Shown here one piece after another: positions 7,637-57,162 of a stretch of DNA of 57,482 nt. Under the pieces are notes generated by a model that saw only the letters and a program-made list of their open reading frames with translations, had not been told where the DNA came from and searched no databases. Position 1 is the first letter of the stretch; the number at the start of each line of letters is the position of its first letter. The position numbers were made by a program, and so were the translations under genes. This stretch comes from Sutterella sp. GTDB lineage: Bacteria; Pseudomonadota; Gammaproteobacteria; Burkholderiales; Burkholderiaceae_F. The stretch spans positions 1 through 57,482 of the forward strand of contig NZ_JAUNSF010000008.1 of the NCBI RefSeq assembly GCF_030539355.1. The letters run 5' to 3'.

Positions 7637-7972
7637 TCGGGATCTCCGGGCTGCAGTTTTTGTTCTTGTTCGGCGTTCCCTGCTGTGTCCGGCGCGGGAT
7701 CCCGGCCGTGGGAAACATGTCCTCACAGCGCGACACAGGCAGAGAGACGGATAGTCGAAGATACGCGACGACCAGTTTTGGTGCAAACCCATTCAAGCCT
7801 TTTTGCGTGCTTCTCTTCGCGCTATCTGATTTCAGCCACACCGTCTAGGTTCTGCCGCTTACCCCGCACGTGCCGCGACGGCGGGATACTTACGGTTCGC
7901 GGCTCCAGGATGGTGCATTGCGCAGCCGACTGCCTGACCGCCCCGAATTTACTTTCCTTCTGGAGACCCGCC
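7637..7972. promoter_or_regulatory. Divergent promoter region between the MFS carrier and ydiB
   Basis: These 336 bases separate the divergent genes and should hold both promoters and the binding site of a regulator such as the nearby MarR. I could not pick out a convincing operator. No gene is supported here. Confidence 0.4.
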
Positions 7973-8836
7973 TTGGAAGTCACCGCCAAGTACGAACTGA
8001 TCGGCCTCATGGCCTATCCGATCCGCCACAGCCTCTCGCCGAAGATGCAGAACGCCGCGCTCGAGAAGCTCGGCATCCCGATGTGCTACATGGCCTTCGA
8101 GGTGGATCAGCAGGCCTTCCCCGATGCCATCAGGGGGCTGAAGGCTCTCAGGATGCGCGGCTCGGGCGTCTCCATGCCGAACAAGCAGCTCGCCGTCGAG
8201 TTCATGGACGAGCTCGATCCGGCGGCGAAGCTCGCCGGGGCGATCAACACGATCGTGAACGACAACGGGCACCTCACCGGCTACAACACCGACGGCACCG
8301 GTCACCTGATGGGCATCCGCGAGACGGGCTTCGATGTCAAGGGCAAGACCATGGTGCTCGTGGGCGCAGGCGGTGCCGCCACCGCGATCGGTGCCCAGGC
8401 CGCGGTCGAAGGCTTCAGGGAGATCAAGCTTTTCAACCGCAGGGACAGCTTCTGGGAAGGTGCGGAGGTTTTCGCCAGGCGCGTCAATGACGCGACGGAC
8501 TGCAAGGTGACGGTCTGCGACCTCGATGACCGCAAGCTCTTCGGAGACTCGATCGCAGGGGCGGACGTGCTCACGAACGCAACAAAAGTCGGGATGAGAC
8601 CGTGCGAGGACATGTCCATCATCACCGACACCTCGATGCTCCGCCCGGATCTGCTCGTCACCGAGTGCGTCTACAACCCGCACATCACGCGCTTCCTCCG
8701 CCAGGCCGCCGAGGCCGGCTGCCGGACGGTGGACGGGTATCAGATGCTCCTGTGGCAGGGGGCGACGCAGTTCAAGCTCTGGACCGGTCAGGACTTCCCG
8801 ATCGACCATGTCCGAGAGGTCATGGGTTTCAAGTGA
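7973..8836 (+). CDS. ydiB: Quinate/shikimate dehydrogenase YdiB
   Basis: NAD(P)-dependent interconversion of quinate or shikimate with their 3-dehydro forms, in the cytoplasm. The 287-residue product aligns end to end with E. coli YdiB as I recall it: [20 protein letters not shown] at the N-terminus, catalytic Lys71 in MPNKQ, Asp107 in NTDGTGH, the nucleotide-binding [10 protein letters not shown] at 131-140 and the C-terminal VMGF. This fit picks the TTG at 7973 as start, with GGAG seven bases upstream, instead of the far longer open frame. The aroD gene follows after 58 bases, so the two form an operon for quinate/shikimate use or extra aromatic biosynthesis. Confidence 0.93.
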
Positions 8837-8894
8837 TACTCTGACCGTTCCCGTCCCTTCTCACCCATCCAACACCCGCAGAAGCAGCAATTCC

Positions 8895-9650
8895 ATGAAG
8901 ACCGTCACCCTGAAGAATGTCACCCTGGGCGAGGGCGCGCCGAAGATCCTCGTCTCCCTGATGGCCGCGGACATCGAGGCCGTCAATCGCGAGGCCGCGG
9001 CCTATCAGGCCGCCGACTTCGACATCCTCGAGTGGCGTGCGGACTTCTTCTCGGCCATCACCGAGACGGCGAAGGTTCTTGAGGCTCTCAGGGCACTGCG
9101 CGAAGCCTTCCCCGGGAAGCCGATCCTCTTCACCTTCCGCTCCAAGGCCGAGGGCGGCGAGCAGGCCCTCGATCCGCGCGTCTACACGGACCTCAACATC
9201 GCTGTCGCCGGGAGCGGCCTTGTCGATGCGATCGATCTCGAGCTCTTCACCGGCGACGAATTCGTGAAGGAAGCGCTTGCCGAGGCTCACGCGAAGGGCG
9301 TCAAGGTGATCATGTCGAGCCACGACTTCAAGAAGACTCCGCCGAAGGCGGAGCTCCTCGCGAGGCTCACGAAGATGCAGGAGCTCGGCGCAGACGTGCC
9401 GAAGGTCGCGGTCATGCCGCAGAGCAAGGCCGACGTGATCGAACTTCTCGCCGCCACCGCAGCCTTCTCCGAGACCGCCGACCGTCCCGTCATCACGATG
9501 AGCATGTCGAAGACCGGCGTCATCTCGCGCCTCTCCGGTGAAGCCTTCGGGTCCGCGGCCACCTTCGGCGCAGTCGCCAAGGTCTCCGCCCCGGGCCAGA
9601 TCTCCGTGGGAGACCTGCGCACGGTGCTCGACATCCTGCACAGGGCGTAA
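8895..9650 (+). CDS. aroD: Type I 3-dehydroquinate dehydratase AroD
   Basis: Converts 3-dehydroquinate to 3-dehydroshikimate by a Schiff-base mechanism in the cytoplasm. The 251-residue protein has the type I signature: [10 protein letters not shown] (42-51), [10 protein letters not shown] with catalytic His143, and Schiff-base Lys170 in VPKVAVMPQ; the C-terminus [20 protein letters not shown] is the conserved substrate loop. Length and numbering match the E. coli enzyme. The start is the ATG at 8895, giving the MKTVT beginning typical of AroD. Together with YdiB it can bring quinate into the shikimate pathway. Confidence 0.95.
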
Positions 9651-9696
9651 AGTCCGCCCTCCCGGGGACTCCCTTCCCGAACCTCCCATCGAAAAA

Positions 9697-9733
9697 GACC
9701 CGCCGGACTGAAATCCTGCGGGTCTCGTTCTTT
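9697..9733 (+). terminator. Rho-independent terminator after aroD
   Basis: GACCCGC (9697-9703) pairs with GCGGGTC (9718-9724), the stem is extended by GGA/TCC, and TCGTTCTTT follows. The tail runs into the first repeat of the CRISPR-like array. Confidence 0.8.
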
Positions 9734-9929
9734 AGCACTCCCACTTTCGTGGGTAAACGTCACCCCTGCTATTGCAGGGAAATTACACCCCCGCTTTCGC
9801 GGGGAAAACAAACGGAGCGCCCATCAGAAAGCCCGTCGCAGAAACACCCCCACCGAAGTGGGGAAACCAAATACGGAGGCGGCCTTGCTGGCAACTCCAT
9901 AGAAACACCCCTGCCGTCGCAGAGAAAAT
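9731..9929 (-). CRISPR. Small degenerate type I-E-like CRISPR array with hydrogenase-like spacers
   Basis: Five related repeats begin near 9731, 9756, 9781, 9840 and 9901. The first three follow each other at a 25-base pitch without spacers; the third, fourth and fifth are 29 bases long and are separated by spacers of 30 (9810-9839) and 32 bases (9869-9900). All share the pattern CACCCC, a stem-loop, then GGGGAAA, the same as the array beside cas5e at 54.0 kb. On the minus strand they read like type I-E repeats (TTTCCC... stem... GGGTGT). Stems differ between repeats but stay paired: CCCAC/GTGGG, CCCTGC/GCAGGG, CCCCGC/GCGGGG, CCCCAC/GTGGGG; the last (CCCTGC/GCAGAG) has one mismatch. Spacer 1 resembles hyaC and spacer 2 resembles hyaB (see findings). 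No cas gene or clear leader is adjacent. Confidence 0.75.
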
Positions 9930-10120
9930 ACACAAACACACAGAGCTCTGACTCACCCCGGCAATCCACAGCCCCCTCCCATCAGAATCACCTGGCCGGC
10001 GGCACTCACATCATCACTTCCTCCGGGGGCAGAACCAACATTAGCACACAAACCGTCAGATCACGTCGCAGACATGAGCGCAGACATAAATTTTTACAAG
10101 ATTCTTCGGACACCAATAGG

Positions 10121-10156
10121 AAAAGCCCTCCGGAACCGAAATCCCGGAGGGCTTTT
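10121..10156 (-). terminator. Terminator after the hyaABC operon
   Basis: AAAAGCCCTCCGG (10121-10133) pairs with CCGGAGGGCTTTT across a short loop; read on the minus strand the stem is followed by TTTTCC. It lies just past hyaC. The stem also ends in T's on the plus strand, so it may work both ways. Confidence 0.8.
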
Positions 10157-10210
10157 CTTGTCTGATCAGGCCTCCCGGCCCCGAGGGACCGGGAGAGGCT
10201 CAAGGGACGA

Positions 10211-10921
10211 TCAGTGCTCGGTGTGCTTGAACATCCTCAGGCCCGTCGTCATCGACGAGAGGGTCGTGCAACCGCCCATGATGTCCTCGCGGAAGGACAT
10301 GTACATGTGAGCGATCGAGAAGATGATGAAGACATACATCGTGGCATGGTGGATCGTGCGGACCGCCTGAGCGTCACCGCAGAGGGTGAACACCCAGCCG
10401 AACCAGCTCATCCAGCCGATGCCCTCACCCCAGGCCTGCGCGTAGAGCGCGAGACCCGTGATGATGATGACGATCGAGCCGATCGTGAAGAAGCCGAACA
10501 TGGCGAGCTGGGCGAGCGGATTGTGGCCCGCGTACTCGGCAGACGTCTTCTTCATGAAGAGGTAGTAGGCGACCTGTCCGAAGACACCCTTCCACCACTT
10601 GAAGCTCCAGAGCGGCGGGATGAAGATCTGACGCGCGTACTTGTTGCCGACCACCATCCAGTAGAGGCGGTAGACAAAAAGACCCGTGTAGATGATGCCC
10701 GCGGCAAAGTGAGCAAAGCGGATGTAAGCGAAGTCGTAGGTAGACCAGGTGTCACCTAAATTCGACACCAGCGGAGCGCCGATGAGAAAGCCCGTGAAGA
10801 TCATCACGAACATGCAGACCATCATTGCCCAGTGCCAGACTCGAACCGGTGCCTCCCAGACATAGAGCGGGTGCGTGCCCGCGCTCATGTCAACTTCGTA
10901 GGTGACTGGATCGATTTTCAT
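10211..10921 (-). CDS. hyaC: [NiFe] hydrogenase b-type cytochrome subunit HyaC
   Basis: Integral membrane dihaem cytochrome b that anchors the hydrogenase and passes electrons from the small subunit to the quinone pool. The 236-residue protein (E. coli HyaC about 235) has four hydrophobic segments: about 28-48 (MMVCMFVMIFTGFLIGAPL), 70-90, 145-168 and 195-215. Likely haem-ligand histidines are in VRVWHWAMM, RFAHFAAG and VRTIHHATMYVF. Third gene of hyaA-B-C, 20 bases after hyaB. A segment of 24 bases (10772-10795, coding TGFLIGAP) matches the first spacer of the array 0.9 kb downstream at 22 positions. Confidence 0.95.
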   Translation of the reverse strand: MKIDPVTYEVDMSAGTHPLYVWEAPVRVWHWAMMVCMFVMIFTGFLIGAPLVSNLGDTWSTYDFAYIRFAHFAAGIIYTGLFVYRLYWMVVGNKYARQIFIPPLWSFKWWKGVFGQVAYYLFMKKTSAEYAGHNPLAQLAMFGFFTIGSIVIIITGLALYAQAWGEGIGWMSWFGWVFTLCGDAQAVRTIHHATMYVFIIFSIAHMYMSFREDIMGGCTTLSSMTTGLRMFKHTEH

Positions 10922-10941
10922 GGAAAACCTCCTCTCCGCTG

Positions 10942-12705
10942 TCAGCGGACCTGAACCGAGCAGAGTTCCTCACCCTCGGGATTCAGGAGATGGGACGCGC
11001 AGGCGAGGCACGGGTCAAAGCTGTGGATCGTGCGGATGATCTCAAGCGGACGCTTGGGATCGGCGATCGGGGTGCCGATGAGCGAAAGCTCGAAGGCGCC
11101 CTGCTGACCCTCGTTGGAGCGCGGCGAAGCGTTCCAGGTCGTCGGGACGACAGCCTGCCAGTTCTCGATCTTCGTGTCCTTGATGACGCAGTAGTGCGCG
11201 AGCGCGCCACGCGGGGCCTCGGAGAGACCGACGCCGCGGCACTGCTTCGGCCAGGTCGACGGTTCCCAGAACTCCATGTTGGCGGCGGCTTCGTCACCGG
11301 CCTTGATGTTCGCGGTGAGCTCGTCGACGTACTGGACCATCTTCTGGGCGGCCCAGTGGCATTCGAGAGCGCGCGCGGCATGGCGGCCGAGCGTCGAGAA
11401 GACGGCCTCGAGCGGAGCGTTGAGCTCGGAGAGGAGCGCGAGAGCGGGTTCTTTGATGTGCGGAACGTTCTTCGCGACACCGACCACAAGGCGGGCGAGC
11501 GGGCCGACTTCCATCATGTGGCCGCGCCAGCGCGGGCTCTTGACCCACGAGTACTTGCCGTCCGGCGTGAGCCACGAGAACTTCGTGGCAGTGCCTTCGG
11601 CACCCGGGGGCAGCTCGTACTTCTGCTCGGTGATGCCGTCCCACGGATGCAGACCCTTGTTCTGATCCGGGTACTGGTACCACGAGTGATCGACGAATTC
11701 CTGCAGCTGCTCGGGGTCGCGCGGGTCAAAGTCGTGGACCTCATTGAGGTTGCCGTTGACGATGACGCCCTGCGGGAGCTGGAGGGACTTGTCGGACCAG
11801 TCGTTGGGGATCTCCGGGAAGTCGCCGCAGCACAACATATTTTTACCGGCCAGGCCGCCGCCGTACTTGAACCACTCGGGGTAGAAGGAGGCGATCGCCT
11901 TGATGTCCGGCAGATACACGTTCTCAACCATCGCGACGGCCTGCTTGGCGACCTGGCGCATGTAGTTGAGGGTGACTTCGTTCACCATCGTGCCCTGGGC
12001 GCCCGTGTCGTGCATGTTGATCGGGCAGGCGACACCGCCGACGAGATAGTTCGGGTGCGGGTTCTTGCCGCCGAGGATCGTGTGGATGCGGACGCACTCA
12101 CGCTGGAAGTCCAGGACCTCGAGGTAGTGGGCGACGGCGAGAAGATTGACCGCGGGCGGCAGCTTCATCTCGGGGTGGCCCCAGTAGCCCTTGTTGAAGA
12201 TGGAGAGCTGGCCGGACTCGACGAGCTTCTTCACACGGTTCTGGATGTCACGGAAGTAACCGACGGCCGCGAGCGGATGACGCGGCGAAATCTTCTGCTG
12301 CAGGTCAGCCGTTTCGCGCGGATCGGCCTGGAGGGCGCTCACCACGTCCACCCAGTCAAGGGCGGAGAGCTGATAGAAGTGGACGATGTGGTCCTGCGTG
12401 TAGAGGGTCGCGTTGATCAGGTTGCGGATGAGGTTCGCGTTCTTCGGGATCTTGATACCGATGGCGTCCTCAACGGAACGGACGGCGGCAAGGGCGTGAA
12501 TGCCCGTGCAGACGCCGCAGATACGCTCAACGAAGGCCCAGGCGTCACGGGGGTCACGGCCCTTGAGAATGACCTCAAGGCCGCGCCACATCGTGCCGGT
12601 GCTCATGGCGTCAGTGATTTTCCCGTCATCACCGAGGACGGCCTGAACGCGCAGGTGACCCTCAATGCGGGTGACGGGGTCGACGACGATTCTGCGTTCG
12701 CTCAT
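10942..12705 (-). CDS. hyaB: [NiFe] hydrogenase large (catalytic) subunit HyaB
   Basis: Carries the Ni-Fe(CN)2CO centre for H2 oxidation on the periplasmic side. The 587-residue precursor has the N-terminal ligand pair RICGVCTGIH (Cys63, Cys66) and the C-terminal pair DPCLACASH (Cys566, Cys569). A 15-residue tail after His572 (LLNPEGEELCSVQVR) is the piece removed by the maturation protease once nickel is inserted; that protease gene is not in this window. Its start codon overlaps the hyaA stop by one base. Codons for KYGGGLAG at 11842-11868 correspond, with synonymous changes only up to the last codon, to the second spacer of the nearby array. Confidence 0.97.
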   Translation of the reverse strand: MSERRIVVDPVTRIEGHLRVQAVLGDDGKITDAMSTGTMWRGLEVILKGRDPRDAWAFVERICGVCTGIHALAAVRSVEDAIGIKIPKNANLIRNLINATLYTQDHIVHFYQLSALDWVDVVSALQADPRETADLQQKISPRHPLAAVGYFRDIQNRVKKLVESGQLSIFNKGYWGHPEMKLPPAVNLLAVAHYLEVLDFQRECVRIHTILGGKNPHPNYLVGGVACPINMHDTGAQGTMVNEVTLNYMRQVAKQAVAMVENVYLPDIKAIASFYPEWFKYGGGLAGKNMLCCGDFPEIPNDWSDKSLQLPQGVIVNGNLNEVHDFDPRDPEQLQEFVDHSWYQYPDQNKGLHPWDGITEQKYELPPGAEGTATKFSWLTPDGKYSWVKSPRWRGHMMEVGPLARLVVGVAKNVPHIKEPALALLSELNAPLEAVFSTLGRHAARALECHWAAQKMVQYVDELTANIKAGDEAAANMEFWEPSTWPKQCRGVGLSEAPRGALAHYCVIKDTKIENWQAVVPTTWNASPRSNEGQQGAFELSLIGTPIADPKRPLEIIRTIHSFDPCLACASHLLNPEGEELCSVQVR

Positions 12706-13799
12706 TATTCCTTACCTCCGATTTCCTTGTTGGTCTTGGCACGGGCCTGCGCGACGCACGAAAGGGCGGCATGCGCGGCCGCGGCGACGCCGACGACGGC
12801 GACGGTGGCGAGACCGACCTTGTCAACAGTGCCTTCAACACCGCCGAAGACGGGCGGCAGAACGGTCGTCTCGTGCTCGTAGAACGAGCCCTTGTCGAAG
12901 AAGTTGGGCTCGGCGCAGCCGATGCAGCCGTGACCGGACTTGACAGGCCAGGAGAGGCCCTCGTTCCACTGGACGGTCGAGCAGGGCGCGTAAGTCGTCG
13001 GGCCCTTGCAGCCGACCTTGTAGAGGCAGTAGCCGAGCTTGGCACCGGCGTCGTCGAACTTCTCGGCGAACTGACCGGCGTCAAAGTGACCGCGGCGATA
13101 GCACTTGTCATGGATGCGCTGGCCGTAGAACATCTTCGGACGGCCGAGGCGGTCAAGCGGCGGCAGACGGTCGTAGGTGAGGATGTAGGTGACCACAGAG
13201 GTCATGACCTCCGGGATCGGCGGGCAGCCCGGAACGAGCACGACGGGCTTGTCCGTGATGATCTCCGTGATAGGCACGCTTTCCGTGGGATTCGGCTTCG
13301 CGGCCTGCACGCAGCCCCAGGCGGCGCACGAGCCCCAGCCGATGACGGCCTTGGCGCCCGCGGCGACGTGCTTGAGCTTGTTGAGGAAGATCTCACCGTT
13401 CGGCACGCAGTTGATGCCGCCCTGGTAGAGCGGAACGTTGCCCTCGACGGCGAGGATGTAGTTGCCCTTGTACTTCTCGATCGTCTCGGCGAGGGACTCC
13501 TCGGCCTGCTCGCCGGCGGCGGCCATGATGGTGTCGTCGTAGTCGAGCGAGATCATCGAGAGGACGACGTCCTCAACGAAGGGTGAATAGGAACGGACGA
13601 AGGACTCGGTGCAGCAGGTGCACTCGAGGCCGTGGAGCCAGATCACCGGAGTGCGGGGCTTCGTTTCCATCGCGTTGGCGATTTCCTGAGCACCGGCGCT
13701 GCCGAGACCGAGACTCGCAGCGGTGAGCGAGCAGAACTGCAGGAAGCTGCGGCGGCTCACGCCCTGGCGCCGCAACGCCTCATATTGCGTTTCAAGCAT
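12705..13799 (-). CDS. hyaA: [NiFe] hydrogenase small (Fe-S) subunit HyaA, oxygen-tolerant type
   Basis: Electron-transfer subunit of a group 1d-like membrane-bound uptake hydrogenase. Residues 15-30 ([16 protein letters not shown]) form a twin-arginine export signal, so the folded heterodimer is exported by Tat. The proximal cluster region has [10 protein letters not shown] (Cys60, 62, 63) and GSCAAWGC (Cys158, Cys163), plus Cys192 in PGCPP. The extra cysteines at positions 62 and 163 are those that make the [4Fe-3S] cluster of oxygen-tolerant enzymes. Medial and distal cluster ligands follow ([22 protein letters not shown]). A C-terminal hydrophobic helix (about 330-350) anchors it to the membrane. 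First gene of the operon. Confidence 0.97.
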
Positions 13800-14480
13800 G
13801 TGTGGGTCTCCCCCTCTTTTGTTTCTCGAGCGGACCCTGATCAGGACAGGAGGGTTTGCCTTTACCGGGGTCCGAAGCTTCTTTTCCTGAGCCGTCGTGG
13901 ATCTGACGAACCCGAGCCGCTTGAGTAATAGGTATTGCGGCTTCAGTGTCCGACATCCGCTTTCTGTTCCGCCCTGAACTCAGCCCCCAGGGGCGGAACA
14001 TCAGAAACGTCGAGACGGTGCGGTGACCTTCGGACAGCTCGAAACTTTCGAGTGCAAGATTAAAGACGCCCCCGCGGGAGCCGCCATTGACCTTCCGCAC
14101 ACTCCGCCTACCCCTGAAGTACTACCTAGTAGTATTTTCTCAGGGAAAACCCTCGAAAAATTCCCTGACAAAACAAAGCTGAGAACCGTTCGCATTTTCA
14201 ACCCGGTGACACTCCACTTTGGGGATGGAAAGGAACTCCACCTTTAGCACTACCCCCGTGCCTCCCTTTGGCTGATGAGCCGCGAGGGGGTTCGTTCCTA
14301 TACTCTGAAAGGGATCGTGCCCCCGGAGCGCCCCTGGAGCGCCCCGGCCGCCGTCCCGGGAGAAAGAACAATTCAGACGCCCCGTCCGGAGCCCCCGTAG
14401 CCCGGGGATCGCACCGCCCTCATATATGGAGAGGCAGGCATCCCCGCCCCCGGAACGGTGAGCGAGGAGAGAGCACCTTG
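13800..14480. promoter_or_regulatory. Divergent control region between hyaA and the accessory genes
   Basis: These 681 bases separate hyaABC (minus) from the chaperone and hyp genes (plus) and hold no convincing gene. Possible sites are an inverted repeat TCAGGGA (14140-14146) with TCCCTGA (14162-14168) and an imperfect palindrome ACTACCTAGTAGT near 14121. I could not find a clean sigma-54 promoter on either strand. Confidence 0.45.
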
Positions 14481-26476: not shown

Positions 26477-27445
26477 ATGCAATTCTCGTACGAGTACCTT
26501 TCCCCGGCCGCTTTCGAAGAACTGATTATTTTAATTTGTCAGAAACTTTTCGGACTTGGAACACAGCCGTTTTCAGAAGGCAGGGACGGCGGTCGTGACG
26601 GAAAATTTGTCGGTACGGCAGAAGCATTTCCAAGCAAAGCAAGTCCATGGACAGGCACCACTATCATCCAGGTGAAGCACGCCAGTGGCTATAATCGCCA
26701 TTTTCTCGAAAATAGCTTTTTCAGCGAATCAAGCAAATCCTGCGTCATCAATCAGGAAATACCCCGCATCAGAGCATTGCGCAACAGCGGCGAACTGGAC
26801 AACTACATTCTTTTCTCAAACAGAAGAAAAACAGCCGGTGCTGAGGCCAAAATTCATAAATATATATCCGAAAAATGCAACATACCCTATGAATCCGTGC
26901 ACATCTGCGGAACCAATGACATTGATTTACTCTTAAAACAATTTCCCGATATAAAGGAAAAATTCCTCGCAAGCCCTATCACTTTTGAAGTCACATTACG
27001 TCCAAATGAACTCTCTGAAGTGATCGAAGCTTTTGCGGATAAAAAAGATTCAATCAACAAAGCTGTAACCAATGAGATCGCCCGGGATTTCGAAAGAACT
27101 AACATAGCGGACAAAAACAAGTACAACAATCTGACAAACAACTATTCACAACACCTTTTGGATACATGCCTCAAGGAAAGCCGTTTAATTTACGATTTTA
27201 TTTCAGACCCAAACAATGAAGATATCCGTGATAAATATGAGACCGCAATCGCAGATATAGAATCCAAAATCATAGCGAACAAAAGCAGATTCCCCAGCTT
27301 TGACGACTTGTTCAACCATATTTTAGATGTCCTGATCAGCAGTGATCCAATACTAAGCGACCACTATAACACAACAAGAGCTATATTATGTTATATGTAC
27401 TGGAACTGCGACATAGGGAGAATTTCTGATGCTCCGTCCGACTAA
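26477..27445 (+). CDS. ABC-3C effector: PD-(D/E)xK nuclease-like N-terminus with ABC-3C C-terminal domain
   Basis: A 322-residue protein. Residues 11-70 show an Mrr-like restriction fold: AFEELIILICQKLFGLG, then EGRDGGRDGKFVG (34-46) with the probable metal ligand Asp41, and IIQVKH (63-68) as the Q-x-K half of the motif. The rest is helical (EIARDFERTNIADKNKYNN onward) and resembles the C-terminal domain shared by effectors of ABC-three-component systems. The last 17 bases overlap the middle-component gene. In these systems the ATPase controls an effector through the middle component; the expected role is DNA cleavage on phage infection (inference). GC content is far below the flanks. Confidence 0.78.
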   Translation: MQFSYEYLSPAAFEELIILICQKLFGLGTQPFSEGRDGGRDGKFVGTAEAFPSKASPWTGTTIIQVKHASGYNRHFLENSFFSESSKSCVINQEIPRIRALRNSGELDNYILFSNRRKTAGAEAKIHKYISEKCNIPYESVHICGTNDIDLLLKQFPDIKEKFLASPITFEVTLRPNELSEVIEAFADKKDSINKAVTNEIARDFERTNIADKNKYNNLTNNYSQHLLDTCLKESRLIYDFISDPNNEDIRDKYETAIADIESKIIANKSRFPSFDDLFNHILDVLISSDPILSDHYNTTRAILCYMYWNCDIGRISDAPSD

Positions 27446-27668
27446 ACACTCGCACCCTGATAAAACAGTCATTTACGCCTCCTATCTTATTCTGAATCGC
27501 CTGATCAAAAATCAGACCGACAGTTTTGATAATTTAAATAATTACGTAAAACAAACCATCGACGGCGGCGAAGCATTATTCATTCCATCCATTTCATTCC
27601 TATATCTTCTTGGAGTGGTTGAATACCGTCAAAAAACAGATTCCTTTGAATACAAGAAAAAAATATGA
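27429..27668 (+). CDS. ABC-three-component middle component (MC6-like)
   Basis: A 79-residue winged-helix-like adaptor. LRPTKHSHPDKTVIYASYLILNRL at the start and FIPSISFLYLLGVVEYRQKTDSFEY at the end fit the ABC-3C middle-component family 6, which links effector and ATPase. It overlaps both neighbours (17 and 4 bases), which implies tight translational coupling and a complex. Confidence 0.75.
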   Translation: MLRPTKHSHPDKTVIYASYLILNRLIKNQTDSFDNLNNYVKQTIDGGEALFIPSISFLYLLGVVEYRQKTDSFEYKKKI

Positions 27669-29455
27669 AACTCTCCAGAATTTACTCCAATCTTCCTGAA
27701 AAGTTCCCGCCCGTATCTTTCAATCCGGGACTGAATGTTGTTCTGGCCGAAATCAAACTTCCCGAGAACAGGGACAAGGACACTCACAACCTGGGCAAGA
27801 CTACATTTGGCAGACTCATCGACTTCACCCTTCTTTCGAAAAAAGATCCTGATTTATTTTTGTTTAAGAATATTGATACCTTCAAGGACTATATATTCTA
27901 TCTGGAAATTCAGACCGGGAACAATTCATTTCTCACCATCAGAAGAAGCGTTTCCTCTCCAAACAGCATAAACATCCATCTGCATGATTCAGGCAATCTC
28001 GATTTATCCAGTCTGCCAGATGAAGAATGGTCTCACAATGCTCTGTCATTCACGAAATCCGTTGAACTGCTGGACGGAATTCTTGACTTCACCGCTTTGA
28101 AGGACTGGACGTATCGCCGGGCTCTTGGGTATCTACTGCGTACTCAGGAGGACTATCGGGACGTTTTCCATCTTCATAAAATCGTCAGAAACTCCGACTG
28201 GGTTCCTTTTGTCGCACGCATATTAGGATTCAATGACGTTCAGATTACGGATTTATACGAAAAGGAAAAGAAGCTTGAAGAGCTCAGGGCCAGAGACAAG
28301 CAACTTACCGAGGAAATCAAGGATTCCAAGGATGCCCTGGAAAAATCCGAAGGTCTTCTGCTCCTGAAGAGAGCGGATCTTGCCAAAAAAGAAGCCATTC
28401 TTGAGTCCTTCAATTTCAATGACCCGGACAAAGAACGGACCATTGATTTAGTTGAAAATATTGATTCTGATATTGCGATTCTGAATTCAGAACGCTATCT
28501 TCTCAATAAAAACAAGAAGAAAATCGTTTCCTCATTGGAAAACGAAATCATTCACTTCAATCCTGAGAAAGTCAGTCAGTTATTCAATGAAGCCAATATT
28601 CTCTTTCCTGATCAGATAACAAAGGACTACAGTCAGCTCATCCAATTCCTCAAAACGATCGGAAAGGAACGCAAAGATTATCTCACCAAAGAACTGGAAG
28701 AGATAAAAACCCGACTGAAGCAAGTTGAAATCTCTTCTGCTGATCTACAGCTCAAGAGATCAAATGCACTTTCCTTCCTGAGCAGCACGGATATTTTCTA
28801 CAAATACAAGGATCTGTCAAAAGAATTATCCAATCTGAGAAATGACATCACACATCTTGAATACGAAGTTGAGCAACTCCATAAACTTCGCTCGCTTAGA
28901 TCCGAAATTCGAACAATAAACGAAGAAATCAGTCGTCTTCACACTGCGATTGAAGAGGACAAGGATTTGCAGTGCAGTTCATCCGACAGTCTGTTCACTA
29001 AAATCAGAATTTATTTCAGTGAGATCATTGAATTTGTCATTGATCGTCAGGCTCTTCTCAATGTAATCATCAACGCCAACGGTCAGCTTGCGTTCAAGGC
29101 GGATATTCTCGATGACAACGGCAATTCCACAAGCGCCGACCTCGGTCATACTTACAGGAAACTGCTGTGCATTGCCTTCGACCTTGCCGTTCTTCGCGCT
29201 CACCTCGGTGAGAAATACCCTCATTTTGTTTTCCATGATGGATTGCTGGAATCGCTTGATGACAGAAAAAAGGAGAATCTTCTGACTCTCATTCGGCAAT
29301 ATTCCGCCCTGGGCATACAGTCCATCATCACTGCGATTGACTCTGACCTGCCGATTCGATCGGCTTCAGAAGACATTTTCACCAGTGAGGAAATCATACG
29401 AAAACTTGATGACACCGGAGATTCTGGGCGTCTGTTTAATATTCCCGCATTTTAA
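27665..29455 (+). CDS. ABC-three-component ATPase, DUF2326 family
   Basis: A 596-residue SMC/RecN-like ATPase. KLSRIYSNLPEKFPPVSFNPGLNVVLAEI opens the protein as in DUF2326 proteins, and the P-loop is the unusual THNLGKTTF (40-48). Residues about 200-430 form long charged coiled coils. The C-terminal lobe has DLGHTYRKLLCIAFDLAVL (signature-like, about 500) and HFVFHDGLLESLD (Walker B-like, about 525), with His before the Asp. It should sense or act on nucleic acid and switch the effector. Stop followed after 19 bases by the unrelated M20 gene, where GC content jumps back up. Confidence 0.82.
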   Translation: MKLSRIYSNLPEKFPPVSFNPGLNVVLAEIKLPENRDKDTHNLGKTTFGRLIDFTLLSKKDPDLFLFKNIDTFKDYIFYLEIQTGNNSFLTIRRSVSSPNSINIHLHDSGNLDLSSLPDEEWSHNALSFTKSVELLDGILDFTALKDWTYRRALGYLLRTQEDYRDVFHLHKIVRNSDWVPFVARILGFNDVQITDLYEKEKKLEELRARDKQLTEEIKDSKDALEKSEGLLLLKRADLAKKEAILESFNFNDPDKERTIDLVENIDSDIAILNSERYLLNKNKKKIVSSLENEIIHFNPEKVSQLFNEANILFPDQITKDYSQLIQFLKTIGKERKDYLTKELEEIKTRLKQVEISSADLQLKRSNALSFLSSTDIFYKYKDLSKELSNLRNDITHLEYEVEQLHKLRSLRSEIRTINEEISRLHTAIEEDKDLQCSSSDSLFTKIRIYFSEIIEFVIDRQALLNVIINANGQLAFKADILDDNGNSTSADLGHTYRKLLCIAFDLAVLRAHLGEKYPHFVFHDGLLESLDDRKKENLLTLIRQYSALGIQSIITAIDSDLPIRSASEDIFTSEEIIRKLDDTGDSGRLFNIPAF

Positions 29456-32733: not shown

Positions 32734-32804
32734 AGTGAAGAATAATAAGTAACCGCGCAAAAATAAAATTTAAATTTTCGAGCCCGCCATTGTATACTTC
32801 AGCC

Positions 32805-33947
32805 ATGGCTGACGACACCTTTCTTCGCAATCCCGAGGTCTCTCACTACATAGAGACTCTCCTTCCCCTGCTCAATGAGCAGCAACGCCGATGTTTTGTC
32901 GGCGGTCTGGTGGCGCTCGCCGGCCACGGCGGCCTGAAGCTCATCAGCGAGATCTCCGGCCTTTCCCAGCCCACACTGATCAAGGGGCGGAAAGAGTACG
33001 AAACACTGAAAAACGACCCGGAGGCACGTGCAGCGCTTTCCGACGGCAGCCGGATCCGCAGGGAGGGCGGCGGCCGGAAGTCCGTCACGGAGCTTCATCC
33101 CGAAATCGAGACTGAACTCGCGAAGCTGCTTGACGGTCACGAGAGCGGCAGCCCCGGGAACCCGCTCACCTGGACGACGAAGAGCACCTACACGCTCGCG
33201 AAGCTCCTGGCGAAAAAGGGGATGAAGGTCAGCCCGAAAACCGTGGCGAGGCTGCTCAAGGCTGCCGGCTTCAGCCTGCGGCAGAACAGCAGGTACGTCG
33301 AGAAGACCGCCGCCTCGCCGAATCGTGACGAGCAGTTCCGCTTCATCAATGAACTCTGCAAGGCCTTCCTGCGTGAAGGCTGGCCTGTTGTTTCAGTCAA
33401 CGCCGGAAGGAAGGAACTCGCCGGCGGCTGCAAAGACGGCTGTCATGACCTTGAAGGCCCCGGCGGTGCCGACATTGAAGCCGCTGACGGCCTGGAGAAT
33501 GCCGGCATCGGCGCAGACACCGCCGAGTTCGCTGCGGCAGGCATCAGACGCTGGTGGGAAACCTCGGGGCGGGAACGCTGCCCCAATGCCCGCAGGCTGA
33601 TGATCACTGCGGACTGCGCAGGCAGCGACGACGAAACCCGGCACTGGAAAACCTGTCTGCAGCGTCTTGCTGACGAGACCGGTCTTGAGATCCACGTTTC
33701 GCATTTCCCGCCGGGCACATCGAAGTGGAACCGGATCGAGCCTCTGATCTCAGCTCAGATCACCCGCTGCCGGCGTGGTCAGCCGCCCGAGTCGCTTGAG
33801 ATCAGCGTATCGCTGATCGCCAGCAGTGATCACGGGAAAGGCACCGTGGTCACCGGTGAAGAACTGACGGCAGAGAGTCCCGGGCAGGACTCCCGGCGGG
33901 GCGACAACTGGAACTATGTCATCCGCCCGATTCAGGCTTGTCCGTAA
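32805..33947 (+). CDS. ISAzo13-family transposase, internally deleted and probably inactive
   Basis: A 380-residue protein. GNPLTWTTKSTYTLAKLLAKKG, VSPKTVARLLKAAGFSLRQNSR, HDGE-like DTAEFAAAGIRRWWE, RRLMITADCAGS and HFPPGTSKWNRIE are hallmarks of ISAzo13 transposases. The first catalytic Asp, usually in SVDTKKKE, is Asn here (VVSVNAGRKE), and the next stretch, normally containing HDFP and YGVYD, is missing and replaced by a short low-similarity segment (DLEGPGGADIEAADGLENAG). The ATG at 32805 is used; the TTG 15 bases upstream is less likely. No inverted repeats were recognised around it. Confidence 0.78.
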   Translation: MADDTFLRNPEVSHYIETLLPLLNEQQRRCFVGGLVALAGHGGLKLISEISGLSQPTLIKGRKEYETLKNDPEARAALSDGSRIRREGGGRKSVTELHPEIETELAKLLDGHESGSPGNPLTWTTKSTYTLAKLLAKKGMKVSPKTVARLLKAAGFSLRQNSRYVEKTAASPNRDEQFRFINELCKAFLREGWPVVSVNAGRKELAGGCKDGCHDLEGPGGADIEAADGLENAGIGADTAEFAAAGIRRWWETSGRERCPNARRLMITADCAGSDDETRHWKTCLQRLADETGLEIHVSHFPPGTSKWNRIEPLISAQITRCRRGQPPESLEISVSLIASSDHGKGTVVTGEELTAESPGQDSRRGDNWNYVIRPIQACP

Positions 33948-54015: not shown

Positions 54016-54222
54016 AACCCCTGCTATGGCAGGGAAAACTGCGCGCTTATCGTCGTATGCAGGCTCATAGCGGAAACACCCCTGCTATGGCAGGGAAAAA
54101 TGGGCCCTTATCGTCGCGTATAGCGATATAGCGGAAACACCCCTGCTACGGCAGGGAAAACTGAGCCTTTATGGTCGCATGTAATGATATGGCAGAAACA
54201 CCCCTGCAGCGGCAGGGAACTA
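54011..54222 (-). CRISPR. Type I-E CRISPR array, 4 repeats and 3 mutually similar spacers
   Basis: Repeats of 29 bases at 54011-54039, 54072-54100, 54133-54161 and 54194-54222; spacers of exactly 32 bases at 54040-54071, 54101-54132 and 54162-54193. Core: ACCCCTGC, 4-base loop (TATG, TATG, TACG, AGCG), GCAGGG. The two outer repeats are degenerate at their outer ends. Read on the minus strand the repeat looks like GTTTTCCCTGC...GCAGGGGTGTTTCC, the type I-E form, in the same direction as the cas genes. The cas5e stop codon lies inside the first repeat, so there is no leader. Spacers 2 and 3 agree at 24 of 32 bases, 1 and 2 at 22, and 1 and 3 at 20, which is unusual (see findings). Confidence 0.92.
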
Positions 54223-54957
54223 AGCAATTGCTTTTCTAATAACACATCTGCTTTTATATAACTTCTCGGTTCCAAATCTTACCGGAACATCATTCAAAAA
54301 CATTTTCTGCATCGGAACACTCGCAGGCCGCTTTTCTGAATCACCCTGAGTCTCTTCCTCAATTTCCAGGATCACCATTTTATCCTGGTTTTCAGACATT
54401 GAATCCAAATTATTCCTCAAAAATTCCTCAGCTGCAAATCTTGAAGAAAAAATACCACCAAACACCGGTTCTGATGGTGCACAGCACTTCCTTCCCAAAT
54501 ATAGATCCCAGACAGGCGTTTTTAATCCTTCTATGACTCTTTCCTTCCAACCGATTGGAATTTCCATGATAACACAGAATTTCTCATCCTGCAAGTAAAT
54601 TTTCTTTGTCATTTTCATTCCACTCGTCTGAGATCGTTTGCCATCAAATGTTCTCAGTTTGCAGAAACGTTGCCAGGGATCATCTGGATCATAACCACTT
54701 CCTATCATTTGAAAATCAGTAAGATTGACGGTCTTTTTCGCTTCCTTTTTACCGATCCGATAGGCAGTCATTGGATAACATGTGAACTGCGACAGTGCGT
54801 CCTCCTGAGCACCGCCCAGACCCATTGCACAGAACAGAAGTCCGATGACACCTGATTTCGTCGGGAAATCATGTGTGTTACTGGTCCAGAACCGGGAGTG
54901 ATCACCCCAGCTCTGCAACGGACCTGCCAGGTTAAGAAGCAAGAATGCTCTTTCCAT
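54220..54957 (-). CDS. cas5e: Type I-E Cascade subunit Cas5e (CasD)
   Basis: A 245-residue Cas5 protein that binds the crRNA 5' handle. AFLLLNLAGPLQSWGDHSRF opens it in the conserved way (LxGPLQSWG), with TKSGVIGLL following. The stop codon overlaps the first CRISPR repeat. Three bases separate it from cas7e. Last cas gene here; no cas1 or cas2 follows. Confidence 0.95.
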   Translation of the reverse strand: MERAFLLLNLAGPLQSWGDHSRFWTSNTHDFPTKSGVIGLLFCAMGLGGAQEDALSQFTCYPMTAYRIGKKEAKKTVNLTDFQMIGSGYDPDDPWQRFCKLRTFDGKRSQTSGMKMTKKIYLQDEKFCVIMEIPIGWKERVIEGLKTPVWDLYLGRKCCAPSEPVFGGIFSSRFAAEEFLRNNLDSMSENQDKMVILEIEEETQGDSEKRPASVPMQKMFLNDVPVRFGTEKLYKSRCVIRKAIA

Positions 54958-54960
54958 GAT

Positions 54961-56013
54961 TCATTCCTTGATATTCATTATTACTTCAGAAATTTTTTCT
55001 ATTAATTCACTAATAGATGAACGGTCTTCACCGAAATCAAACTGGGCCAGCTTGCCAAACAGATCTCCCGCCTGACATTCCTTCATCTCCAGCGTTTCTT
55101 TCAGCACTTCAATGCTGGGTTTAAGAAAACCACCGCATGCGCCTGACTTAACCGGCTGTTCAAAACCGCACTGAATTCTCTGCCCTGTTCTGATATATAC
55201 ACGTGCAAAATCCCATGAGTTGCTTGCCGACATTGTCGACTGTCGTGCAGAAGGAACTGCAAGATACAATGCCGTTATAAATGTTTTCACAGGCTCAATC
55301 AGCTCACTCGCTTTTTCAATATTCAAGACTGAAGCAAGCTGATTAAGATTCAGTGAAACATAACGATAGTAAGTCGCCGCACTGAACTCCATATTCCCAA
55401 GATGTCCGGCGGTAAAATCATTCGGATCAGCCAGTTTTATGTCATCCAAGGCTGTGAAAAAATCGAGCTCAGATGTGCAGGCATGAGTGGAAAAGGCATG
55501 ACTGAAGGCCGCCGCGGCCTCGACATTGATTACGGGAGCCTGTGCCACCATTCTGCCGAAAAGTGCGATATCCAGTCCGTCCAAAGGACCTACCTTGGCC
55601 TTGCTGAGCAATTTTACGACGGCATCTTTTTTGATTTTATTTTCATCAAAATCAAGTTCTTTAATATATTCTGCAATGGCAGAATATTCCTGATCAGACA
55701 AAAAAATAAGAGTATCTTTCGTAATTTCCTTGGCAACAGTCTTCGCGCATTCTTTCGCCTGCGTTTCAGAAGCGTTCAGATCGATGAGTTTCTGAACAAG
55801 CGTCTTTTCAACATTCTTGGTTCTGATGGCAAGTTTGACACCGCGTTCATGAAGTTCCTGTCTAACAACTCGCTTCCAGCACTGGGAACTCACGCGTGCT
55901 CTTTCAACGCCGCCGATGAAGCAGGTTTTGGGTGAGTTCAGATCATCCCTGTTCAGGCATGAAACCGGAAAACTCTGAATAATGTGAAACTCAATGAGAG
56001 GATATTTTTTCAT
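54961..56013 (-). CDS. cas7e: Type I-E Cascade backbone Cas7e (CasC/Cse4)
   Basis: A 350-residue protein that forms the crRNA-binding filament. FHIIQSFPVSCLNRDDLNSPKTCFIGGVERARVSSQCWKR is the typical start and SARQSTMSASNSWDFARVYIR the conserved C-terminal part. I use the ATG at 56013 (MKKYPLIEF). Confidence 0.95.
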   Translation of the reverse strand: MKKYPLIEFHIIQSFPVSCLNRDDLNSPKTCFIGGVERARVSSQCWKRVVRQELHERGVKLAIRTKNVEKTLVQKLIDLNASETQAKECAKTVAKEITKDTLIFLSDQEYSAIAEYIKELDFDENKIKKDAVVKLLSKAKVGPLDGLDIALFGRMVAQAPVINVEAAAAFSHAFSTHACTSELDFFTALDDIKLADPNDFTAGHLGNMEFSAATYYRYVSLNLNQLASVLNIEKASELIEPVKTFITALYLAVPSARQSTMSASNSWDFARVYIRTGQRIQCGFEQPVKSGACGGFLKPSIEVLKETLEMKECQAGDLFGKLAQFDFGEDRSSISELIEKISEVIMNIKE

Positions 56014-56024
56014 GATATTAAGCC

Positions 56025-56636
56025 TCAAATTAATGCAAGTTGAATGAGTCCAAACCCGAAGGCCCGGCCTTTCCCGATGCCTTTTTGAAAAGCTTCAGAA
56101 AATTTTACAGAATCCGTCACTCGGAGAATTCCGGTAGCCCGTGCTTTTTTATATATTATTTTTGTATTTCCCTTGCGAAATTTTTCTGCTCCCATTTGAT
56201 CCACTTGATCTATGCGCACAATCATTCCATTGTTTTGCATCTTTTCATGAAACCAGACTCTGAAGTCACTTTCATTTTTAATCGGTATCCGCCTGCGATG
56301 GAACTGCCTCACCGGATTAAGAAAAACCTGATACCTATAATATTCATGATCAAGAAAATCTTCAGGAAGTTTTCTGCAAATAACATTAAGATCATCGGGT
56401 AATACATTTTTTGACAGGTCTCTGTCAGATAAAAAATCAATCTCCCGCCCCGTCAAATGCTGACCACGGTCTACCCAAAGAAAGCTCTTACATTCCTCAG
56501 GGTTATATATTCTTATATCAGAATAATAAAGGTCGCACATGATCTTATGCAGTGAATATCGATCCGTTACTTTCATTCGAATCAAAGCCGAAGGCTGAAG
56601 ACTGAGTCTTCCCAAATAAAGCTGCTTATTAGTCAT
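56025..56636 (-). CDS. cas6e: Type I-E crRNA endoribonuclease Cas6e (CasE/Cse3)
   Basis: A 203-residue processing nuclease. LYLGRLSLQPSALIRMKVTDRYSLHKIMCDLY (with candidate catalytic His30) and the C-terminal glycine-rich loop GIGKGRAFGFGLIQL are the marks of Cas6e. The start overlaps the end of cse2 (ATGACTAA). It sits between cse2 and cas7e, whereas in E. coli it follows cas5e. Confidence 0.9.
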   Translation of the reverse strand: MTNKQLYLGRLSLQPSALIRMKVTDRYSLHKIMCDLYYSDIRIYNPEECKSFLWVDRGQHLTGREIDFLSDRDLSKNVLPDDLNVICRKLPEDFLDHEYYRYQVFLNPVRQFHRRRIPIKNESDFRVWFHEKMQNNGMIVRIDQVDQMGAEKFRKGNTKIIYKKARATGILRVTDSVKFSEAFQKGIGKGRAFGFGLIQLALI

Positions 56637-57162
56637 TTTGTCTATCCAAATGTTTGTAATATTCCAGTGTCCAGCGGATTTTGATTTTCTCACAATCCCG
56701 TTCGAAATATATCATCTCCCAGAGCAGTCTTGAATAATTCAAATTCGCGCGTTTTCTTTCTGAAATCACTCTCAGAAGAGGTTGAATATTTTTAATCAGA
56801 TCCTCCGTGCGTTTGCACGAAAGCAGTTTTCTAATTCTGATAGCGATCGAATCATTACCTGAAATAGAAAATTTGGCTTTGTCACCCCATGTTTTTACCA
56901 AAGCCGATCCAAGCCCGTCACATCCGTTCTCTGTCGATTTATCCATGCAGATATATGCACCTATCAGAATATATGCTGTTCTGTATTTATCTATCTGGAA
57001 ATGTTCACCCATGAATGGAATAACATATTCCCAAACGGCATATGAGCCCAAAGGATTCGTAGCCCTTCTGAAAGCCGACCTCATTTTTGTGTCATTTTCT
57101 TTTTTCGCGTAAATAAATTCAACATAAGCTTCTTCCTTGTTTTTATAGGTCTTACTTTTCAT
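56629..57162 (-). CDS. cse2: Type I-E Cascade small subunit Cse2 (CasB, Cas11)
   Basis: A 177-residue helical protein. RRATNPLGSYAVWEYVIPF, IRIRKLLSCKRTEDLIKNIQPLLRVI and RANLNYSRLLWEMIYFE (the conserved LNYxxLLxDL pattern) identify Cse2, which lines the target-strand groove. Starts 3 bases after the cse1 stop. Confidence 0.92.
   Translation of the reverse strand: MKSKTYKNKEEAYVEFIYAKKENDTKMRSAFRRATNPLGSYAVWEYVIPFMGEHFQIDKYRTAYILIGAYICMDKSTENGCDGLGSALVKTWGDKAKFSISGNDSIAIRIRKLLSCKRTEDLIKNIQPLLRVISERKRANLNYSRLLWEMIYFERDCEKIKIRWTLEYYKHLDRQND

Follow-up and report, generated by a model that had tools for sequence, protein, structure and literature searches.

This locus raises the question of why both spacers of a small CRISPR array resemble the hydrogenase genes that lie beside it. 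The array, which is worn and type I-E-like, occupies about 9732-9929, between aroD (8808-9650) and hyaC (10211-10921), in the stretch of DNA analysed here (the window: positions 1-57482 of contig C48 of genome G000, 57,482 nucleotides). Read on the minus strand, its order is r1-A-r2-B-r3, followed by two hairpins without spacers. The array, the hya genes and the resident sites that resemble the spacers are as follows:

9902..9929, minus strand: repeat r1, 5' of spacer A, GTGTTTC handle intact
9869..9901, minus strand: spacer A, 33 nt, reading KYGGGLAGNSI (HyaB: KYGGGLAGKNM)
9841..9868, minus strand: repeat r2, stem CCCCAC/GTGGGG, TTCG loop, GTGTTTC handle intact
9810..9840, minus strand: spacer B, 31 nt, reading ATGFLMGAPF (HyaC: FTGFLIGAPL)
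9782..9809, minus strand: repeat r3, terminal, handle degraded to GTGTAAT
9732..9781, minus strand: hairpins r4 and r5, without spacers, limits approximate
10211..10921, minus strand: hyaC, Ni-hydrogenase cytochrome b (PF01292)
10769..10799, minus strand: resident hyaC site like spacer B, 23/31, PAM-side triplet GAT
10942..12705, minus strand: hyaB, hydrogenase large subunit (PF00374)
11836..11868, plus strand: resident hyaB site like spacer A, 23/33, strand opposite to the gene, PAM-side triplet CAA
12705..13799, minus strand: hyaA, hydrogenase small subunit (PF14720, PF01058)

The original prediction held that both spacers encode the hydrogenase protein with other codons, and their translations do run parallel to HyaB and HyaC. 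For spacer A, the predicted agreement with hyaB at 21/27 bases, with six third-position differences, was correct; over the full length it is 23/33, and relatives give 20-24/33 at the same hyaB site. For spacer B, the predicted 22/24 core in hyaC was right, but the 24/30 claimed for the longer alignment came to 23/30 on recount, where relatives give 20-26/30. Note that these ranges come from six relatives per gene, hand-picked from 40 loci (one is locus L057 of genome G026). Since the identity of each spacer to the resident gene falls inside the between-species range, each spacer looks like the hydrogenase of a further species. Moreover, all 7/7 mismatches in the 24-base cores of A and B lie at third codon positions, as do 12/17 over the full lengths, a bias that resembles the one between orthologues. 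The Ala of spacer B is that of congeners G004 and G007 (ATGFLIGAPL), unlike the resident Phe; codon 10 of spacer A is Ser, and all 40 relatives' loci displayed have Asn. An origin of the spacers as gene duplicates was rejected, since the two spacers match opposite strands of the hya operon, A the antisense and B the sense strand.

Could these resemblances be accidental? Against the hya operon (10200-13799), the score of spacer A (16) was reached by 1/5000 mononucleotide and 3/5000 dinucleotide shuffles, and that of spacer B (20) by 0/5000 of either kind, while the 73 array spacers of congeners that served as control, two over-long units being omitted, scored 14 at most. Across the whole window, the best match of both spacers is their hya site. 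In whole-window shuffles (400 per setting, with spacer A taken two bases out of register), A was reached by 1 (mismatch -1) and 3 (mismatch -1.5), and B by 0 and 0; here A, at 17, exceeded the highest control (16) at the first setting and only equalled it (14.5) at the second.

The array itself has much in common with a canonical type I-E array: 28-nt repeats with a Cas6e-type hairpin and a GTGTTTC handle, spacers of 31-33 nt, and repeat periods of 59 and 61 bases, as in the hairpin repeats of about 61 bases of type I-E. In congener type I-E arrays the repeat GTCTTCCCCGCGTAAGCGGGGGTGTTTC stands on the minus strand, with the leader-like end, inferred from the sequence common to these arrays after the last repeat, at the right. 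This orientation rules out a plus-strand reading of the hya-side array; it places the crRNAs on the minus strand, and thus the seed at the end opposite to that assumed earlier. In the genome's two arrays, nine repeats in all, 53/54 stem cells are paired and 2/6 pairs are changed on both sides, and the GTGTTTC handle is retained where a repeat precedes a spacer and lost in terminal repeats. The precursor of the hya-side array folds with a z of -2.97 against shuffles (2/200 were equally good). Searching Rfam with 9600-10250 gave nothing above the gathering score, and no sigma-70-like promoter was seen in 9640-10230. Elsewhere in G000, outside its two arrays, the repeat pattern has only two isolated one-mismatch matches. 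Unlike those of a canonical array, the hya-side repeats are not near-identical; they diverge from one another with compensatory stem changes, and the terminal hairpins lack spacers.

The same genome carries type I-E effector genes, about 44 kb from the hya-side array, a distance that also sets this array apart from the canonical arrangement. Those in the window, and the array that adjoins them, are:

54017..54220, minus strand: second worn array adjoining cas5e, 4 repeats, 3 spacers
54220..57162, minus strand: type I-E cas5, cas7, cas6, cse2
55493..55525, minus strand: cas7e site like spacer D2 of congener G007, 28/33

A separate contig, C132, carries the start of cse1 and also cas3, which was assigned because it resembles the cas3 gene of G004. 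Of the adaptation genes cas1-cas2 that accompany a canonical array, Cas1 was searched for and had no match in the G000 draft, and some Cas1 type was found in 7/12 genus genomes; since the assembly is in 203 contigs at 96.17% completeness, the missing Cas1 is provisional. The three 33-nt spacers of the second array resemble one another, as if copies of one spacer, and no targets of these spacers (C1-C3) were found in the sequences searched, CRISPR neighbourhoods included.

In Tn7-type CRISPR transposons, an array lies beside the gene that it matches, with mismatches at wobble positions. The hya-side array has the same appearance and could on this ground be taken for the homing guide of such a transposon. 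We regard this as extremely improbable: Pfam revealed no Tn7-type transposition family in the 30 ORFs scanned of 157 listed, the array lies 929 and 1935 bases from its matched hya sites, and Cas3 is present. A transposase that is not of the Tn7 type lies at 32790-33947.

We then considered what the crRNAs could do to the resident genes. As originally predicted, the seeds mismatch the local genes, with the correction that the seed is at the other end of the spacer: spacer A is mismatched to its resident target at positions 1, 4, 5 and 7, and spacer B at positions 1-4. With these seeds, and with PAM-side triplets of CAA and GAT, the matches do not appear good enough for self-targeting interference. 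Regulation of the host hya operon by partial matching had also been put forward. Cascade-guided regulation of this kind, similar to that by CreA/CreTA or scaRNA, would accord with worn ectopic repeats that keep their stems and handles next to a putative target, and with Cascade genes in a genome without a Cas1 match. The ectopic guides CreA/CreTA share such worn repeats with retained processing elements (PMC8501985, PMC9458426). CreA, as described in PMC8501985, requires seed bases 1-5 and 7-11 to be paired at the promoter, and association of E. coli Cascade is reported to depend on pairing of the crRNA 5' end, off-target binding being inert (PMC5904413). At hya, unlike in these accounts of CreA/CreTA, there is no full seed pairing to the promoter region, and the matches lie inside protein genes. 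Upstream of hya (13800-14267) no full 10/10 seed site exists, the best being 7 or 8 of 10, and both seeds are broken at the resident sites. Nor was an array seen beside hya in relatives: 0/40 hya loci had at least two such hairpins per strand in a strict screen that recovers 3/5 repeats of the hya-side array, some of these loci ending at contig ends, and none was seen after the aroD homologue of G008. These sequence comparisons do not support regulation of the resident operon, which we consider quite improbable. Spacer A has a single full 10/10 seed site in the window, at 28883, inside a gene; it falls in an ABC-3C type defence-like gene pair at 26477-29455 (CTD12 domain, DUF2326).

Congeners provided parallel cases. 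When 12 genomes of the genus were searched for the repeat pattern, a worn mini-array came to light in G007 (L125:7894-8094). Its spacer D1 agrees with cas3 of G004 at 32/33 bases, and D2 agrees with cas7e at 28/33 in this window and 25/33 in G004; D3 had no match in the sequences searched. G007, a single-contig genome, was searched for Cse1, Cas7e and Cas1 and gave no match to any of them. In G004, Cas1 and an array directly follow an ApeI-like and an alcohol dehydrogenase gene. Since C48 and C132 both break near or in cse1, they were taken as possible neighbours; if they adjoin, we infer that the G000 cas operon lies between the ApeI-like and alcohol dehydrogenase genes. In G007 these two genes adjoin, and the mini-array lies about 5 kb on, past an IS1634 transposase. 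The gene order in the three genomes thus places the mini-array near the position where relatives carry type I-E genes. A solitary repeat of the G004-array type was seen elsewhere in G007 (L126, about 7879-7908; C1:2828881), in a region that by eye is prophage-like; it is similar to the single repeat units that PMC10651486 describes as RNA anti-CRISPRs.

In G009, the three trailer-end spacers of the main array (L095:3073-3250), presumably its oldest, match the gene for formate dehydrogenase-N alpha (TIGR01553), which adjoins cas3; this array has Cas1 beside it. Spacer F0 agrees at 23/32 bases and reads ICCYCTGGCG against ICCYCSGGCG, with 8/9 mismatches at third positions. Spacer F1 agrees at 23/33 (NSGSWIQWSE against NSGRWVQWRE), and F2 at 30/33 (31/33 to G001), with KGYFCWGMNP in spacer and gene alike.

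To place A and B among these cases, 93 spacers (85 from arrays and 8 ectopic) were compared with the CRISPR neighbourhoods of six genomes. At the DNA level, D1, F2, D2 and B stood out (B at 20, with a background top of 17), whereas A, at 16, and F0 and F1 were within the background range (16-17), so that these three rest on place and codon pattern. At the protein level, against 1381 open stretches near the CRISPR loci of the six genomes, ranks 1-5 were taken by F2, F0, D1, F1 and D2, with D1 in a frame other than that of cas3; a control spacer came 6th (42.0) and A 7th (41.8), and B was outside the best 18 of 93. If the similarity of A and B to hya were chance, it would be no surprise that A, taken by itself, stays within the background of the pooled scan and scores no higher than the best control at one whole-window setting. 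The operon-limited shuffles, the codon phase, the fact that both best matches fall within a single operon, and the similar cases in G007 and G009 all argue against chance, which we hold to be very improbable. The original claim that two spacers matching the adjoining operon are beyond chance is therefore upheld for the pair, A being the weaker partner in the wider scans.

No exact protospacer of A or B was found in the phages, plasmids, viral contigs and genomes searched, some of which collections may lack the species itself. In blastn searches of 50,697 phage records and 72,556 plasmid records, the spacers had only short or weak matches (lowest E-value 0.1), and none covered 80% of the query. 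Scans of viral contigs for exact 17-24-mers from A, B, C2, D2, F0 and F1 gave 0 matches (8/8 scans). With no convincing match in the phage, plasmid or viral-contig collections, a phage or plasmid source was rejected. The 25- and 27-base cores, allowing up to 3 mismatches, matched nothing in 399 sampled genomes of the order except the array itself, and the codon-degenerate KYGGGLAG[K/N] had 6 matches in a species-genome collection, none within a HyaB match by tblastn.

Together, seven spacers in three species match cas genes or array-side genes, two or three per operon or gene, a pattern that comes from searches mainly around CRISPR loci and hya and would miss matches elsewhere in the genomes. 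In 5/5 spacers with a resident counterpart, two or more of seed positions 1-5, 7 and 8 are mismatched. When A, B, F0, F1 and F2 were compared with the resident genes, 29/40 mismatches were at third positions; with only 11/40 at first or second positions, the spacers themselves show few signs of mutation. We therefore think it somewhat probable that A and B were captured from the hydrogenase allele of a related species rather than from the present form of the resident allele. This would account both for the divergence and for the low proportion of changes at first and second codon positions, because the spacers would have been copied from relatives' alleles. The original prediction had proposed an origin in a relative's orthologous hydrogenase; the orthologue-level divergence and the third-position bias support it, and the exact protospacer was not found. 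In the mechanism suggested by these data, the worn ectopic type I-E array would supply two crRNA units, which, if transcribed and cut by Cas6e, would load Cascade. The loaded Cascade would recognise DNA with the source allele, leading to interference against relatives' DNA, and the resident hya genes would escape through their seed mismatches.

This foreign origin, as deduced from sequence, is not free of difficulties. By itself it leaves the nearness of the array to the resident hya operon unaccounted for. No matching source allele was found, and the Ser at codon 10 of spacer A, where relatives have Asn, also counts against it. Moreover, the repeats appear old and the spacers appear little mutated.

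A different explanation is that the spacers came from the chromosome's own array-side genes and that the conflict was later relieved when recombination exchanged array or gene for a diverged version, or when cas genes were lost. Self-capture near the array would explain the location, and all seven matched sites are indeed in array-side genes or cas genes. The array-side chromosome is a known hot spot for self spacers (PMC10011333), and loss of a cas cassette has been documented under self-targeting (PMC6990116); in keeping with this, G007 has the cas3 spacer (32/33 to G004) without a match to Cse1, Cas7e or Cas1. Moreover, in the G007 and G009 arrays the matching spacer closest to the presumed leader is the least diverged. 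A and B, however, show no such age trend (23/33 against 23/31), and drift within one lineage would have mutated the spacers too, so that the few first- and second-position mismatches oblige self-capture to assume an exchange event. Like the self-targeting spacers of PMC6990116, those described here resemble resident genes, and cas loss can ensue; unlike them, as that source presents them, A, B, F0 and F1 differ from the resident genes about as much as orthologues do, and the seed is broken in all five resident matches. We thus regard self-capture plus exchange as possible but doubtful, and favour foreign capture.

If foreign capture is accepted, the spacers might also guard the locus: directed against other species' alleles of neighbour genes such as hydrogenase, formate dehydrogenase and cas genes, they would destroy incoming homologous DNA that might otherwise replace the region by recombination, and spare the resident copy by seed mismatch. 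We consider this unlikely. If true, arrays would persist as irreplaceable, exclusion of alleles would favour the CRISPR locus and slow the exchange of nearby genes, and a type I-E locus entering G007 would, through such spacers, be made to attack its own cas3 and cas7e.

The source of many spacers is not known, and searches for close matches pass over those that have diverged. Codon-aware comparison with the genes near CRISPR loci gave chromosomal homologues for the seven spacers in three species; if this is general, old array ends record alleles of neighbour genes, and CRISPR loci may be barriers to recombination around themselves. Archaeal spacers have been reported to match chromosomal genes of other, related organisms, often inexactly (Brodt et al. 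2011, PMC3285040). Our spacers are alike in their inexact matches to relatives' genes; they differ from the archaeal case, as given there, in that the matched genes neighbour arrays or are cas genes, with several spacers per operon or gene. A literature search, thin on subscription papers, did not find spacers matching diverged alleles of CRISPR-adjacent genes, which is weak evidence of novelty.

Finally, two other loci showed related arrangements. In G009 (L006:1410-1525, contig C35), two repeats flank a 65-nt insert beside genes that by eye are lysis-like. The insert starts with TGACAGGGTTTTGAAGG, which also occurs twice each in the best-matching stretches of L107 and L108, the loci of other Cas1 matches. 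In a genome of another genus (G087; L133, about 7870-7960), two worn repeats surround one spacer-like stretch of about 32 nt.
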